From NCBI RefSeq assembly GCF_016772475.1, contig NZ_CP068595.1:2356001-2420000 (forward strand): a DNA stretch of 64,000 nt. Reading direction: 5' to 3'. The notes under the pieces were generated by a model. That model saw only the letters and a list, made by a program, of their open reading frames with translations. It searched no databases and was not told the origin of the DNA. Below, piece by piece: positions 2,129-49,308 of the stretch; position 1 is the stretch's first letter, and each line of letters begins with the position of its first letter. The DNA comes from Paenibacillus sonchi. GTDB lineage: Bacteria; Bacillota; Bacilli; Paenibacillales; Paenibacillaceae. The position numbers and the translations under genes are program-made.

Positions 2129-2371
2129 AAGATGTTCCTCTTTTCCAGTGGCAATATATCTATATATTCGACAATAATCACGCTTTTCCTCCAAAGAATG
2201 ACACAAGGTATGCTCCGGGAAAAATGTTCGTGTTTTGGCTATTGTTTAGCATTGTATAGATAGTTATCATGTATAACGCGAGCAAAACACGAATTATGGG
2301 AGCTGAACCTCCTTGACACATTCGTCTATGTTCTGTAATATTTCAAGTGGCTCAACAAACAATGATTAGCT

Positions 2372-2438
2372 GTTCGTATATCCTCAAAGATAAGGTTTGG
2401 GGGTCTCTACAGGGAACCGTAAATTCCTGGCTACGAAT
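2372..2438 (+). promoter_or_regulatory. Purine riboswitch aptamer (guanine-class, C at the specificity position)
   Basis: All three joining and loop signatures of the purine aptamer are present in order: P1 GTTCGTA/TACGAA, L2 GATAAGG, J2/3 GTCTCTAC, L3 ACCGTAAA closed by CAGGGA/TTCCTG, and J3/1 GCTACG. The nucleotide matching position 74 of the xpt aptamer is C, which pairs with guanine-type ligands in characterised members. No purine gene follows. Confidence 0.85.
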
Positions 2439-2479
2439 AGGGTGCATTTGGCATACCTATGAAGTGGTCGGGATTTTTT
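2424..2479 (+). terminator. Riboswitch expression-platform terminator
   Basis: CCTGGCTAC (2426-2434, part of P3, J3/1 and P1 of the aptamer) can pair with GTGGTCGGG (2464-2472) through Watson-Crick and G-U pairs, followed by six T. Because the terminator consumes the 3' part of the aptamer, ligand binding should prevent it, which predicts an ON switch as in pbuE. Inferred by manual pairing only. Confidence 0.55.
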
Positions 2480-14029: not shown

Positions 14030-14407
14030 GAATACATCCTCCTAACGGATGAACTCCACGTGGCCGCATGTGGCTTGAGCGCCCAGTGGAGCTGCGATGT
14101 TTACGGTTTCATTTCACATCTTATTGTGCTACTTTCAAGACGTGTAATCAATTCATACTTTCGGGGAATCCGTTCGCAAAACGGCATGATTCAGTCCGGA
14201 AATGATGAAGAACGGATATTGGTTGCAGAATCAGGATTTGCAGCCGGTTCAACCAGTAACAATGACCTATGTATAAACCGGAAATGTTCATCAACAGCTC
14301 CTTAAGACATATTTTTTGGACAAAGGTTAGCAAAAAAAGCTATTCTTTTGCACTACTTAGCATAAAAAATTTTCCAAATAACGACACACTTTTCGTGTAA
14401 GATCTTG
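14030..14407. other. Divergent promoter region odhA / riboswitch-sinI
   Basis: About 380 bp with no gene. It must contain the odhA promoter (minus strand). No distinctive operator was recognised by eye. Confidence 0.35.
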
Positions 14408-14413
14408 TATAAT
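14408..14413 (+). promoter_or_regulatory. -10 element for the riboswitch-sinI transcript
   Basis: A perfect TATAAT lies about 55 bp before the c-di-GMP aptamer. A matching -35 is weak, which may indicate an activated promoter. Confidence 0.5.
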
Positions 14414-14466
14414 GTTATTGCGGATAACGGTTTCATGGTTTCTAACCAGATCCTTTCATGTAAAGG

Positions 14467-14565
14467 GTCCAGTAAAGGGTAAACCTGCCGAAAGGCAGGG
14501 ACACAAAGTCTCGGGTCTACTGTAGAGATGCTGCAGCTACTACGACGGCCGGACTGCCTGGGGAC
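14467..14565 (+). promoter_or_regulatory. c-di-GMP-I (GEMM-I) riboswitch upstream of sinI
   Basis: Aptamer signatures in order: P1 GTCCAG/CTGGGGAC; P2 CCTGCC-GAAA-GGCAGG with the GAAA tetraloop; the invariant GGGACACAAAG junction; and P3 TCTCGGGTCTAC..GACGGCCGGACTGCC. This matches the GEMM-I consensus closely. The sinI-like ribosome binding site (14577-14582) begins 12 nt after P1 and no T-tract terminator intervenes, so control is probably translational. An upstream 8-bp hairpin (GATCCTTT/AAAGGGTC) shares the GTC of P1 and could compete with it. Confidence 0.92.
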
Positions 14566-14590
14566 GCATAATTTCTAGGAGGAGATATTC

Positions 14591-14746
14591 TTGGATAAGT
14601 CCAACCAGGGGAATGACGGAGAACTGCTGACGGGTGATCTGGATTTAGAATGGGTGTATTTGCTGATGTCGGCCAAGAAGGCAGGGATCGAGGCGGATGA
14701 AATCCGCCGGTTTTTAAACGAAAAAACAGCATTGCAGGCGATGTAG
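14591..14746 (+). CDS. SinI-like antirepressor (51 aa, TTG start)
   Basis: A small gene starting TTG 14591 with AGGAGG eight bases upstream. Residues 17-45 form a SinI dimerisation helix pair: LDLEWVYLLMSAKKAGIEAD followed by EIRRFLNEK, matching B. subtilis SinI (LD-EWV-LM-EAK-A-I--EEIR-FL). In B. subtilis SinI binds SinR and stops it repressing matrix genes. Here the gene is directly behind a c-di-GMP riboswitch and convergent with a SinR-like gene, and the tasA operon is 1 kb away, so the same role is inferred. A perfect 19-bp stem terminator follows. Confidence in the family is high; the partner is inferred from position. Confidence 0.88.
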   Translation: MDKSNQGNDGELLTGDLDLEWVYLLMSAKKAGIEADEIRRFLNEKTALQAM

Positions 14747-14770
14747 AGGCGTTTATTATGATGGAAATAC

Positions 14771-14816
14771 ATACAGAAAAGGGCACAGCAATCATAAGCT
14801 GTGCCCTTTTCTGTAT
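14771..14816. terminator. Perfect 19-bp bidirectional terminator between sinI-like and sinR-like genes
   Basis: ATACAGAAAAGGGCACAGC and its exact complement flank an 8-nt loop. T-rich stem arms serve both convergent genes. Confidence 0.85.
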
Positions 14817-14841: not shown

Positions 14842-15186
14842 TTATTGATCCTTCTGCTCCAGCCGCCATTTTTGGTAATCGAGAAACTCTTTGAATTCCC
14901 TCTTGCTTATACCTGAGGCCATGGCTTCCTGAACAAGCCGGAACCATTCGCCGTCCAGGGAGGATTCATCAGCATCCGAAGGTTCGCCATAGAGCAGACT
15001 GTGGATGGAAACCTGGAGCGCGTCAGCGATTTTTTCGATAAATTGGATTGAGGGGTTGGATTGGATATTTCTTTCTACATTGCTTAAGTATGATTTCGCA
15101 ACATCAGCCTTGTCCGCCAGTTCGGATAAGGACCAGCCTTTTTCCAGACGGAGATGGTGGATGCGACTTCCCATATTATCCGGCAC
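14842..15186 (-). CDS. SinR-like transcriptional regulator
   Basis: A 114-residue DNA-binding protein. The N-terminal XRE helix-turn-helix (SRIHHLRLEKGWSLSELADK, then ADVAKSYLSNVER) closely resembles SinR and SlrR. The C-terminal segment (LDGEWFRLVQEAMASGISKR) is the SinI/SinR interaction fold, so the protein can pair with the 51-residue SinI-like protein encoded next door. It is expected to repress biofilm-matrix genes, with the tapA-like/sipW/tasA operon just beyond as the obvious target. I start it at GTG 15186 because GGAGGGG precedes it; an in-frame ATG four codons later lacks good spacing. Confidence 0.9.
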   Translation of the reverse strand: MPDNMGSRIHHLRLEKGWSLSELADKADVAKSYLSNVERNIQSNPSIQFIEKIADALQVSIHSLLYGEPSDADESSLDGEWFRLVQEAMASGISKREFKEFLDYQKWRLEQKDQ

Positions 15187-15429: not shown

Positions 15430-16038
15430 TTAGTAATCCTTTTTGGGGCCTTGTTTGGCTTCGAAATTCCAGGTCAGCTTCAGCTTATCCTTTTGGAAAT
15501 AGTTTTGTGCTTCGCCAGTATCCACGAATTCGAACTTGACCGTAAAGCTGTCGCTGCTCTGTGCTTTGATGCCGTCAGCTTCAGTGAGAATTTGATCCCA
15601 TCCGGTATTGTTGACCAGATCCGGGGTTTGACCCTTCAGGGCGTCCAGTGTAGTTTCATACACCACAACTTCCGGTGAGAGAATCGTTCCTTTATCGTTG
15701 TTCTTCAGAAATTTAACCTTGATGAATTTGCTGAGATCGACACCGTTGTTGTCGCCGAGGGTATCTGTAACCTCAGTGGTGGTTTTCAGCAGAATCGAGC
15801 CGATATCTAAGGTTCCGTCATTTTTAAGCTTAAAAGTTTTGGTTACGGTGTCGCCCGGTTTCAGGTTTTGGATATCCACGATTACGGAAGGATCGGAGTT
15901 CAGATCCAGTGTGCCTGCTGCGAAGGTAGCCGTACTTGTTGCAGTATCACTAAAGTATGCGAAGGTCCCTCCGCCAATCAAGGACAAACCGAGTGCTGCC
16001 GATGCGATGCCAAGACCCAATGTTTTTTTGATACCCAT
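15430..16038 (-). CDS. tasA: TasA/CalY-family matrix fibre protein
   Basis: A 202-residue secreted protein of the TasA/camelysin family. The N-terminal signal (MGIKKTLGLGIASAALGLSL, then IGGGTFAYFSDT) has the SipW-type cleavage context, where processing occurs just before the FSDT segment. The mature part begins with the family hallmark TATFAAGTLDLN. TasA assembles extracellular amyloid-like fibres in biofilms. The start is ATG 16038 with AGAGGAGG upstream. It is the last gene of an operon with its dedicated signal peptidase. Oddly, the sipW frame upstream has no stop codon and is open straight into this gene. Confidence 0.92.
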   Translation of the reverse strand: MGIKKTLGLGIASAALGLSLIGGGTFAYFSDTATSTATFAAGTLDLNSDPSVIVDIQNLKPGDTVTKTFKLKNDGTLDIGSILLKTTTEVTDTLGDNNGVDLSKFIKVKFLKNNDKGTILSPEVVVYETTLDALKGQTPDLVNNTGWDQILTEADGIKAQSSDSFTVKFEFVDTGEAQNYFQKDKLKLTWNFEAKQGPKKDY

Positions 16039-16709
16039 ATTCGAATTCCTCCTCTGATTTGTGTAGCTGTTGATAAATGAATTATTGTATCTTCCGTTTC
16101 GTAGGCGGAAGCGGACAATCTGTTCAGGACTGTATGTCAGTTCCCGGCGGCGTTTGGGGGAGCGCGGTGTTTTTTTCTCAAGGGCGGTCAGCGCCTTCCA
16201 AGAGCTGTAGAGTGCATAGAGCAGGAGCAGCAGTCCGGGCACAATCATCAGGACCACACTGCCGGCTTTGGAGGCGGCAAAATTCATGGCATATCCTATA
16301 TAAGGAACGGTGACACCGGTATACTCGGCTACAACATTCCCCGAACTGACAGGCGTCATATCGACAGCATCATTGTTATCGCCTTTTGTACGATAGACCA
16401 CTTCTCCCGCAGCATTTTTTGCAGAAGCATCGACAATGCGGTGAGTGATCAGAATGTTGTCCTCGCTCATGAAGGTAATGACATCGCCCTTTTTGAAGCG
16501 GGTCATATCTCCTCCAGGCTTTAAGGCGACTATGGAGCCGGTCTGAATGCCAGGTTCCATTGAACCGGACAGCACCGTTTTGATTTCGTAGCCGAAAAGG
16601 GCAGGCTCACCCCCGAGGCTCTGGATACTACTACGGCTGCTGCCAGCACCACGAAAATCAAAACCATCACTGCGGATAATGTATGGCTGAGTATTTTTTT
16701 GATAAGCAT
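16039..16709 (-). CDS. sipW: SipW-type signal peptidase I, frame broken and open into tasA
   Basis: The ER-type (Ser/His) signal peptidase that processes TasA-family proteins. The start is ATG 16709 behind AAAGGTGGAA, with an N-terminal membrane helix (LSAVMVLIFVVLAAAVVVSR), the catalytic serine motif VLSGSMEPGI, GDVITF, THRIVD (His in place of the prokaryotic Lys), and a C-terminal membrane helix (VVLMIVPGLLLLLYALYSSW). The frame shifts at a run of five C (G on the coding strand) at 16610-16614; six would restore it. After the last helix the frame has no stop and continues in phase through a basic tail and the tasA ribosome binding site into TasA. Either a second error removed the stop, or a SipW-TasA read-through product is possible. 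Confidence 0.85.
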
Positions 16710-16731
16710 GTCAGTTTCCACCTTTAATGAG

Positions 16732-18049
16732 TTATGGTTCCGAAGGCAATGCGGTCGTGTCCGGACCCGGAACCGGAGTCTCTGCTGCCTGTGGTTCTTG
16801 GTCAGGTGTATTGATCACGTCTCCATCCGGAGTTGTGATTGGGTTATCGGCGGCTGGTGCCGGAGTGGTGCTGGCTGCAGGTTCTCCAGAAGCTCCGGCA
16901 TGTATTGCCTCAGGCTCAGGAATGGCTTCCGGTGAGGCTTCCGGTGTGGCTATAGGAGTTGGTTTAGGTGCAGCTTCCGGTGTGCTCGCAGGTGTGGCCC
17001 CAGGTGAGGCTTGCGGTGTGGCTTTTGGTTCGGCCTGGGCTTTCTCTTCCATTTCCTTTTGCTGCTTCTCATGGCCGAGTTTTGCTTCTTCATCCTTTTT
17101 GGCCTTTTCCAAGGCTTCCTGACGGGCTTTCTCAAGCTCTTCCAGCCGCTTGCTCCGGGTCTGGCTGAGAAGCTGCTGCTGGAGCTGAAGCCCTGATATA
17201 TCTGCGGTTACTGCCTCCCTGGCACTGTTCAGCTCGGTCTCCAACTGCCCGTAGGATGAAATCAGCTCATTGGACAAATCTCCCGGAGGCTGGATAAATG
17301 GAGTCAGGATCGGTAAGGACTGCAGGGGTTCTTCCGCATTAAAATGAAGTTGGTTGTAAACAGCTTCGTTAACCGTTGACGGGGATGGAGCCGCGTTGAT
17401 CTGAATAGCCCTCAGGTAGCTGACAGTTCCGGTTATGGAAGCACTGAAGGATTCGGAGAGCACGCCGCCTTGGCTTACACTGCTCTGCAGCTCGTTAAAG
17501 AATTGCTCATCCTTGATTTCCAGACAATTTGGATCCAGATCGATCATATATCCTCCAATCTGCACCAGGACTGCAGCCGCCGCACTGATCTCTGCATGAA
17601 TTCCATTCCAAATCTCGTTGTTAGCCGCCGTTTGCTCATTGATGGCGTTCAGATCTGACTGAAGCTCCGCCATCTGTCTTGAAATCTCCTGTTCTGCTAT
17701 CTCAAGCTCCTCCAAAGACATGGACTCCACTCCGGAAATGCCCGGAACGCCTGCTTGTGGAGTGTAACTTTTCAAAGATGCCTTTAGAGCTGCAGCCGCA
17801 TTGAGATGATCTTTCAGCTCATTGAGCAGCTGCTTGACGGATTCGGGGAATACCTTGCAAAAGCCAATGGTACCCGCTGTCTCTGCGGTACTGCTAAACC
17901 CTCCGTAAGTACTGCCTATCTGGCCGGAGGTGTACAGGAGCAGAACGGATACGGCCACTCCGGATTGCAGGATGCGAAGACCTTTTTTATGGTTTTTTCG
18001 TTTACGCCGTTTGGCGGATCTGGGGTACAGAGGCGGGGCCCCCTCTCAT
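16732..18049 (-). CDS. TapA-like SipW-operon protein with coiled coil and Pro/Thr-rich tail, frame error near the start
   Basis: The first gene of the tasA operon. The likely start is ATG 18049 behind AGGAAG, then a basic segment and a membrane/signal helix (about SGVAVSVLLLYTSGQ) followed by IGSTYGGFSSTAETAGT, which looks like a SipW-type cleavage region. A run of five C (18039-18043) needs to be four for this start to be in frame; otherwise the frame is only open from about 17958. The rest has a helical region, a charged coiled coil (about residues 270-340, KRLEELEKARQEALEKAKKD) and a tail of repeats such as ATPEASPEAIPEPEA. Position matches TapA, but I see no clear sequence similarity to B. 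subtilis TapA. It may anchor or nucleate TasA fibres (inference). Confidence 0.7.
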
Positions 18050-48976: not shown

Positions 48977-49030
48977 CTGCAGTTGCGTTAGGTGACCGCC
49001 TAGGCCAATTGGGCTGAATAGCGGGTGATG

Positions 49031-49118
49031 ATTCCTACGCTGGCATTATCCAGATCAGGTATAAGGGTCAGTATCTTCGCGGGATACACTCTCAGCCGGC
49101 CAATTCCAGCCCCCCTGG
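49031..49118 (-). promoter_or_regulatory. TPP riboswitch
   Basis: The minus strand shows the THI-box signatures in order: CTGAGAG, TGACCCTT, ACCTGATCTGGATAATGCCA and GCGTAGGAA. It lies ahead of the thiY-like/thiamine-binding/thiX-like/thiZ-like operon and represses it when thiamine pyrophosphate is abundant. Confidence 0.95.
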
Positions 49119-49308
49119 TACTATGAAGTTATGGGTATTGCTGTGTTCTTACGGTGTATTATAGCTGTCGCCTGCGGGGTTGTCCAGTAGCCGCCTGCCA
49201 AAATGGCGGCAATCTGCCAAGAACGTCCAGGCCCGCCGGGGTAACCTGGCCTTATGTTATAATACGGACAAGGCTCTACAATTCCGTTTCAGAAAAAGGA
49301 GTGACCCT

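Follow-up and report, generated by a model that had tools for sequence, protein, structure and literature searches.

The window, a 64,000-nucleotide stretch of a 7.78 Mb Paenibacillus genome (C1, positions 2356001–2420000), carries on its plus strand a c-di-GMP-I aptamer followed by a small gene of the sinI type. Convergent with it, on the minus strand, lie a sinR ortholog and genes resembling tasA and sipW. The features are as follows.

14380–14388, plus strand: promoter element AACGACACA at the -35 position, with CGACA separated from the -10 box by a 21-nt spacer in 52 of 54 loci.
14408–14413, plus strand: -10 box TATAAT, at a fixed spacing to CGACA in the same 52 loci.
14449–14456 and 14462–14469, plus strand: P0 hairpin (GAUCCUUU / AAAGGGUC) just 5' of the aptamer, with C14469 common to P0 and P1.
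14469–14562, plus strand: c-di-GMP-I aptamer (RF01051, 74.8 bits, cut-off 35), with P1 formed by CCAG (14469–14472) and CUGG (14558–14561), its extent judged by eye.
14557–14565, plus strand: aptamer 3' end CCUGGGGAC, the proposed switching strand, which could pair either in P1 or, according to RNAalifold, in an anti-P1 helix with the sinI coding region.
14577–14584, plus strand: Shine-Dalgarno (SD) sequence AGGAGGAG of sinI, with little or no variation across the 54 aligned sequences.
14591–14746, plus strand: sinI, TTG start, 51 aa (PF08671; 1b0n_B).
14599–14609, plus strand: GUCCAACCAGG in sinI codons 3–7, the proposed anti-P1 strand within the coding sequence, invariant in 54/54 loci.
14771–14789 and 14798–14816, no strand assigned: perfect 19-bp inverted repeat where sinI and sinR converge, probably serving as a bidirectional terminator.
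14842–15186, minus strand: sinR ortholog with an HTH_3 domain and a C-terminal SinI-type domain, convergent with sinI.
15430–16038, minus strand: tasA-like matrix protein gene of the Peptidase_M73/camelysin family (PF12389, 254.7 bits), its start placed by eye.
16041–16721, minus strand: sipW-like signal peptidase gene (NF046067, 194.6 bits, cut-off 190), in two frames and with approximate limits.

An earlier note on this DNA had described a TTG-started, 51-codon gene with a SinI domain, and the TTG was indeed found at 14591, opening a reading frame whose product matches Pfam SinI (PF08671) barely over the cut-off (32.0 versus 31.4 bits), shows no HTH match and resembles B. subtilis SinI in the solved SinR–SinI complex (1b0n_B, E 2.5e-4). 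The product missed the NCBIfam SinI equivalog AntRepSinIBacil, a model named for Bacillus, at 32.9 against a cut-off of 80. For the 28 core codons compared across 54 loci, pS was 0.695 and pN 0.155 (pN/pS 0.22), and sinI is therefore a real, diverged gene; a spurious ORF is ruled out by the SinI domain, this ratio and its presence in 54/54 loci. The facing protein aligns with SinR (1b0n_A) over residues 5–113 of 114 with an E value of 5.7e-39 and qualifies as a SinR repressor, so that the convergence with a SinR-like gene stands, as does the perfect 19-bp stem that had been noted after sinI. Perfect stems of at least 10 bp separate sinI and sinR in 36/54 loci.

The tasA-like gene is likely to be a SinR target. 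In the window, the N-terminal part and the signal-peptidase part of the sipW-like gene lie in different frames, the second of which reads into tasA without a stop; in P. jilunlii (L125), which among the named records listed by the SinR search comes closest (99% SinR identity), sipW occupies one frame and ends before tasA. The two-frame gene would represent either an assembly error or a true break. Upstream of sipW-tasA, a protein of 408 residues with a high content of Ala, Pro, Glu and Thr (16732–17958, minus strand) gave no Pfam match over cut-off; its position corresponds to that of tapA in B. subtilis.

The earlier note had placed a complete GEMM-I aptamer about 12 nt before the ribosome-binding site and had suggested a covariance-model search against Rfam as a check. 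This search supported the aptamer, which belongs to RF01051 by its score over the curated cut-off (74.8 versus 35 bits), whereas the distance was 14 nt (14562 to 14577). The label kept by cmscan at 14469–14562 on the plus strand was RF03167 (c-di-GMP-I-GGC; 69.6 bits, cut-off 59), which many relatives also keep as their clan label. Although this score lies over the cut-off, the G shown by the consensus of the GGC variant is absent, the window reading ACAAAG against the family consensus GCGAAg. The letters GG, CAAAG and GCC, recognised in the window by eye, are all invariant in 54/54 loci, and we read them as the ligand pocket on the assumption that the canonical c-di-GMP-I pocket letters are G20, A47 and C92 in Vc2 numbering. 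The P0 hairpin was recovered by RNAalifold from 54 sequences (columns 3–10/20–27), with pair 5–25 appearing as UG, UA or CG and pair 10–20 being GC instead of UA in five sequences and broken in four. The genome as a whole holds nine c-di-GMP-I aptamers over cut-off and 28 GGDEF matches, some of which are pieces of one domain. Elsewhere in the window, Rfam identified a purine riboswitch (2354–2453, plus strand, 68.6 bits) and a TPP riboswitch (49015–49126, minus strand, 57.7 bits).

A survey of aptamer and sinI co-occurrence, likewise suggested in the earlier note, showed the arrangement to be a constant of the genus. A SinR search of 81 same-genus genomes gave a match at E <= 1e-12 in 54 and none in 27, and a c-di-GMP-I or c-di-GMP-I-GGC aptamer over cut-off was present at 54/54 SinR-ortholog loci (20/20, 20/20 and 13/13, plus the window). 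The sinI ORF was found at all 54 as well, with a TTG start in 53 and GTG in one. Since the arrangement recurs at every one of these orthologous loci, it goes beyond chance; the 54 leaders comprise 47 distinct sequences, and near-identical species inflate such counts. In the named Paenibacillus records of this type, both the leader (R1 search) and the coding motif described below occurred in 29/29; these records overlap the genus genomes, and the counts given for the genus, for the named loci and for the family are not independent, since these sets share members. No aptamer was found at the seven scanned loci of the SinR paralogs (L072–L084), which share about 50% identity and occupy 13 loci in 11 of the 54 genomes that also have the ortholog. 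Rfam likewise detected no c-di-GMP aptamer at 16 Bacillus, one Tuberibacillus and one Pullulanibacillus SinR loci, a glycine riboswitch being found at 16/16 of those from Bacillus, and the R1 leader search returned nothing in 19 Bacillus loci, these 16 among them.

In the promoter of sinI, CGACA lies exactly 21 nt 5' of the -10 box in 52/54 class-I loci of the genus, where shuffled sequences would give 0.21 of 54, and the same pattern was seen at 5/5 aptamer-less sinI promoters, 11/26 class-II leaders, 1/11 class-I leaders of a second genus and 0/19 Bacillus loci. We take the element at 14380–14388 to resemble a Spo0A box, which makes it, as a lead only, a putative Spo0A input to the sinI promoter, so that Spo0A and the riboswitch may both act there. 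The contrast drawn in the earlier note, in which sinI would be governed by a riboswitch and not by Spo0A, may thus be false. The Spo0A reading lacks validation in the very genus that ought to provide it: none of the 19 Bacillus loci shows the pattern, although Spo0A control of sinI is established in Bacillus.

Because the aptamer precedes the gene on the same strand and no terminator was seen between them, translational control is the natural reading. Transcription attenuation was considered and set aside, as no terminator was visible by eye between aptamer and ORF and the SD sequence begins only 14 nt 3' of the aptamer. A candidate for the competing strand lies within the gene itself: the aptamer 3' end is complementary to GUCC-AA-CCAGG of sinI codons 3–7. 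Codons 4–6 read TCC AAC CAG in 54/54 loci, and together with the last letter of codon 3 and the first of codon 7, each G in 54/54, this renders the 11-mer GTCCAACCAGG invariant. Each of codons 4–6 is thus represented by one codon only, whereas the other invariant SinI residues, Trp apart, are encoded by two to four codons each (53 loci); in the same vein, pS is 0.107 in codons 3–7 compared to 0.695 over the 28 core codons (54 loci). A start-codon hairpin (UUGGA/UCCAA) was rejected as the cause of the invariance, since TCC persists in the 4/53 loci that have AAA or AAC as their second codon.

When no structure was imposed, RNAalifold chose the anti-P1 helix, with nine pairs kept in 54/54 sequences and a single C-G to U-G change; there is little covariation because the helix hardly varies. 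Its mean predicted probability was 0.775, exceeding 0.5 in 38 of the 47 distinct leaders and lying at or below 0.5 in the other nine, and when codons 3–7 were recoded at random with synonymous codons, the fraction paired was 0.309 instead of 0.763. The expression platform of class I, to judge from these patterns, likely extends into sinI, a part of the arrangement that was absent from the earlier note.

We consider it quite probable that the element is a cis-acting translational c-di-GMP riboswitch with sinI as its target, in which c-di-GMP would turn SinI synthesis on, antagonise SinR and release sipW-tasA. Without ligand, the aptamer 3' strand, including its part of P1, would pair with the complementary stretch in the coding region, and the resulting anti-P1 helix would enclose the SD sequence and the start codon and block the 30S footprint. 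Binding of c-di-GMP, which one C of the aptamer 3' strand presumably contacts, would fold the aptamer and let P1 reclaim the strand, thereby opening the start of sinI for translation. The SinI made in this way would bind and disarm SinR, releasing the neighbouring matrix genes, and c-di-GMP would thus switch on biofilm through the antirepressor, perhaps in addition to a Spo0A-like input at the promoter.

An unrelated aptamer class was found in the same place in other genera. Among the SinR loci of other genera, of which 20 of the 40 family loci L085–L124 were examined with Rfam and the others with R1, c-di-GMP-II (RF01786) was over cut-off in 11 and c-di-GMP-I-GGC in one, with neither in eight. 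Five sinI leaders (L086, L100, L101, L102 and L105) had no Rfam match over cut-off and may hold an undescribed control element. A model built from the 11 class-II leaders (R2) was scanned against 245 family genomes and matched 26 of them, in four genera, at 106.8 bits or more, followed by a gap to 64.1 bits; 11 of the 26 are the model's own leaders. A SinI-like ORF lay directly behind the leader in 26/26 strong matches (motif script) and was absent behind 4/4 lower-scoring matches looked at. Six of the 26 encoded proteins were tried against Pfam; SinI PF08671 was the top match in 6/6 and over cut-off in 3/6. A scan of 198 genomes at the order level mostly gave generic class-II aptamers: 29 loci were read, three of them without a readable aptamer end, and one carried a SinI gene. 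At this locus (L266, from another family of the order), a c-di-GMP-II aptamer with a different leader precedes a SinI gene (PF08671, 36.9 bits, over cut-off), and the association of class II with sinI extends beyond the family. By eye, the 3' P1 strand of class II (CCCC, GUCCC or CCGAU) matches the SD stretch (GGGG, GGGAC or AUCGG), and the same kind of strand swap is predicted to hide the ribosome-binding site.

The direction of control was assessed from predicted opening energies. For class II, masking the aptamer lowered the mean cost of opening the SD sequence from 5.19 to 1.98 kcal/mol, with a decrease in 25/26 leaders. For class I, the footprint to +16 cost 12.1 kcal/mol in the P1 state compared to 14.1 kcal/mol in the ligand-free ensemble, favouring P1 in 43/47 leaders, and masking the aptamer made the SD sequence alone easier to open in 37/47 (a tiny change, from 3.02 to 2.84 kcal/mol), the stretch from SD to start in 10/47 and the footprint to +18 in 36/47. 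Without ligand, anti-P1 was more stable than P1 by a mean of 7.2 kcal/mol, a difference that the ligand and tertiary contacts must pay. The predicted energies thus back an ON switch well for class II and weakly for class I.

The opposite sign, with c-di-GMP turning sinI off, for example through pairing of a freed P0 5' strand (UCCUU) with the SD sequence, appears improbable to us. In its favour, P0 is conserved and shares its 3' end with P1, and opening of the stretch from SD to start costs slightly more in the P1 state (7.2 versus 6.6 kcal/mol; easier in only 1/47 leaders). However, UCCUU and the SD sequence could form only a short helix, G-U pairs included (by eye). The aptamer strand has its invariant partner in the coding region, the footprint to +16 opens more readily in the P1 state, and for the class-II leaders, whose target is the same, ON is predicted in all but one case. 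An ON direction for class I is likely, and it fits both the class-II prediction and a report from B. thuringiensis, in which sinI expression was raised when CdgF produced high levels of c-di-GMP (PMC7793685).

Class-I leaders before a SinI gene also occur in a second genus (g18), in at least 11 of the 18 genomes with a SinR match; seven of the 18 had no strong leader match among the matches listed. Ten of the sinI ORFs behind these leaders were identified by script, and that of L246, for which the script gave no ATG, GTG or TTG start, by eye with an apparent CTG start. In 7/11 the coding motif is GUCCGCCCAGG (GUCC-GC-CCAGG, encoding Ser-Ala-Gln), in which the bulge and one residue differ while the pairing letters are kept; two of these seven leaders have GGGGGC in the aptamer strand, with a G-U pair retained. 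The remaining four (L246, L247, L249 and L250) fit the coding motif only partially, and in P. macerans the anti-P1 pairing is worse (both by eye). In P. oralis (L153, 451–601), the sinI leader lacks P2 of the aptamer while the rest of the leader and the gene are retained, which by eye amounts to a natural deletion. The aptamer-sinI unit of P. macerans lies beyond sipW-tasA-sinR and points away from it, and similar offsets were seen in other second-genus members.

This geometry bears on a further alternative, in which the aptamer would control a transcript entering sinR from its 3' end, sinI being irrelevant. Such an antisense-acting riboswitch has been proposed in print for Paenibacillus sp. 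FSL P4, where a c-di-GMP-I riboswitch lies beside a SinR-like gene (PMC9943018, 2023), and it draws on the convergent geometry in the genus and on perfect stems of 10 bp or more being present at only 36/54 loci, which leaves room for read-through at some of the others. We nevertheless regard it as very unlikely. An antisense assignment, as we framed it, presupposes that no gene intervenes, yet a conserved coding gene with its own SD sequence and a pN/pS of 0.22 stands between aptamer and sinR, and the aptamer can pair with the start of that very gene in 54/54 loci. Moreover, the unit of the second genus is not opposed to sinR, in L109 and L110 sinI and sinR are codirectional, and the aptamer unit travels with sinI rather than with a position antisense to sinR. 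The FSL P4 case is probably the same locus arrangement with sinI overlooked, as far as a comparison by description can tell. That the aptamer senses another ligand, as the RF03167 clan match kept in the window and many relatives might suggest, is hardly credible given the RF01051 score, the A in the window at the position of the GGC-consensus G, the CAAAG invariant in 54/54 loci and the c-di-GMP-II aptamers that occupy the same place elsewhere.

Direct sensing of c-di-GMP at sinI, as proposed in the earlier note, is strongly supported at the level of sequence by the conservation of the arrangement and by the occurrence of another aptamer class at sinI in other genera, and translational control of sinI by c-di-GMP may be set in a broader frame. 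In a SinR tree of 66 rows, of which 53 were labelled and 13 were left unlabelled and uncounted (including the seven second-genus loci without a leader match and P. oralis), one change sufficed for class I (99/88), against two for class II and three for 'no aptamer'; as the alignment has 113 columns and the root is unknown, sensor exchange and repeated gain are indistinguishable. The chances seem to us even that c-di-GMP entered the matrix switch of Paenibacillaceae early and stayed as an input while unrelated RNA came to serve as its sensor, by exchange or by renewed gain, with class I in one clade and class II at two places in the SinR tree, combined with an RNA-dictated SinI N-terminus and a two-key lock of Spo0A and c-di-GMP on biofilm commitment. 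Part of the N-terminus (Ser-Asn-Gln) would be dictated by the RNA because the first codons of the antirepressor form the competing strand in class I, and, taken with the CGACA element of the promoter, expression of sinI would depend on Spo0A and c-di-GMP alike. If the coding-sequence strand acts as proposed, silent substitutions alone should abolish switching.

SinI is expected to unlock biofilm production, and the RNA before sinI in Paenibacillus and some related genera is sensor-like. If the proposed circuit is true, a bacterial family of soils and plants would have c-di-GMP acting on its antirepressor through RNA alone, and the presence of two aptamer classes before one gene is a strong argument for function. 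The locus shares with B. subtilis homologous SinI and SinR proteins (1b0n) and nearby genes of the sipW-tasA type. In B. subtilis, sinI is driven by Spo0A; we know of no riboswitch before it, in which it differs from the locus described here, and although B. subtilis makes c-di-GMP, to our knowledge its matrix switch does not sense c-di-GMP directly.

The earlier note had held the circuit to be undescribed, which is too strong in view of two reports. RNA-seq 5'-UTRs of B. methanolicus MGA3 compared with Rfam yielded a putative c-di-GMP riboswitch, '(c-di-GMP)-sinI' (PMC4342826, Table 4), and SinI is named there as the antagonist of the biofilm regulator SinR. That system, likened here by description and not by sequence, likewise has a c-di-GMP riboswitch in the sinI 5'-UTR but belongs to another genus, and the relevant section gives no aptamer class, platform or direction. 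The locus of Paenibacillus sp. FSL P4 (PMC9943018) similarly has a c-di-GMP-I riboswitch opposed to a SinR-like gene, but the target there is the SinR-like gene in antisense, and sinI has no occurrence in the main text. The sinI reading offers a better account of this published 'antisense' case and illustrates how missing a small ORF can give rise to interpretations of this kind. Within the open literature, most subscription papers lying outside this scope, the relevant parts of neither report describe an expression platform or two aptamer classes; new here are a platform that would enter the sinI coding sequence and the unrelated class c-di-GMP-II before sinI in other genera. A further parallel is cbpA of B. 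thuringiensis, a surface-adhesion gene under a c-di-GMP ON riboswitch (PMC7793685, PMC7423583), where the target is one adhesin, whereas here it would be a master antirepressor.
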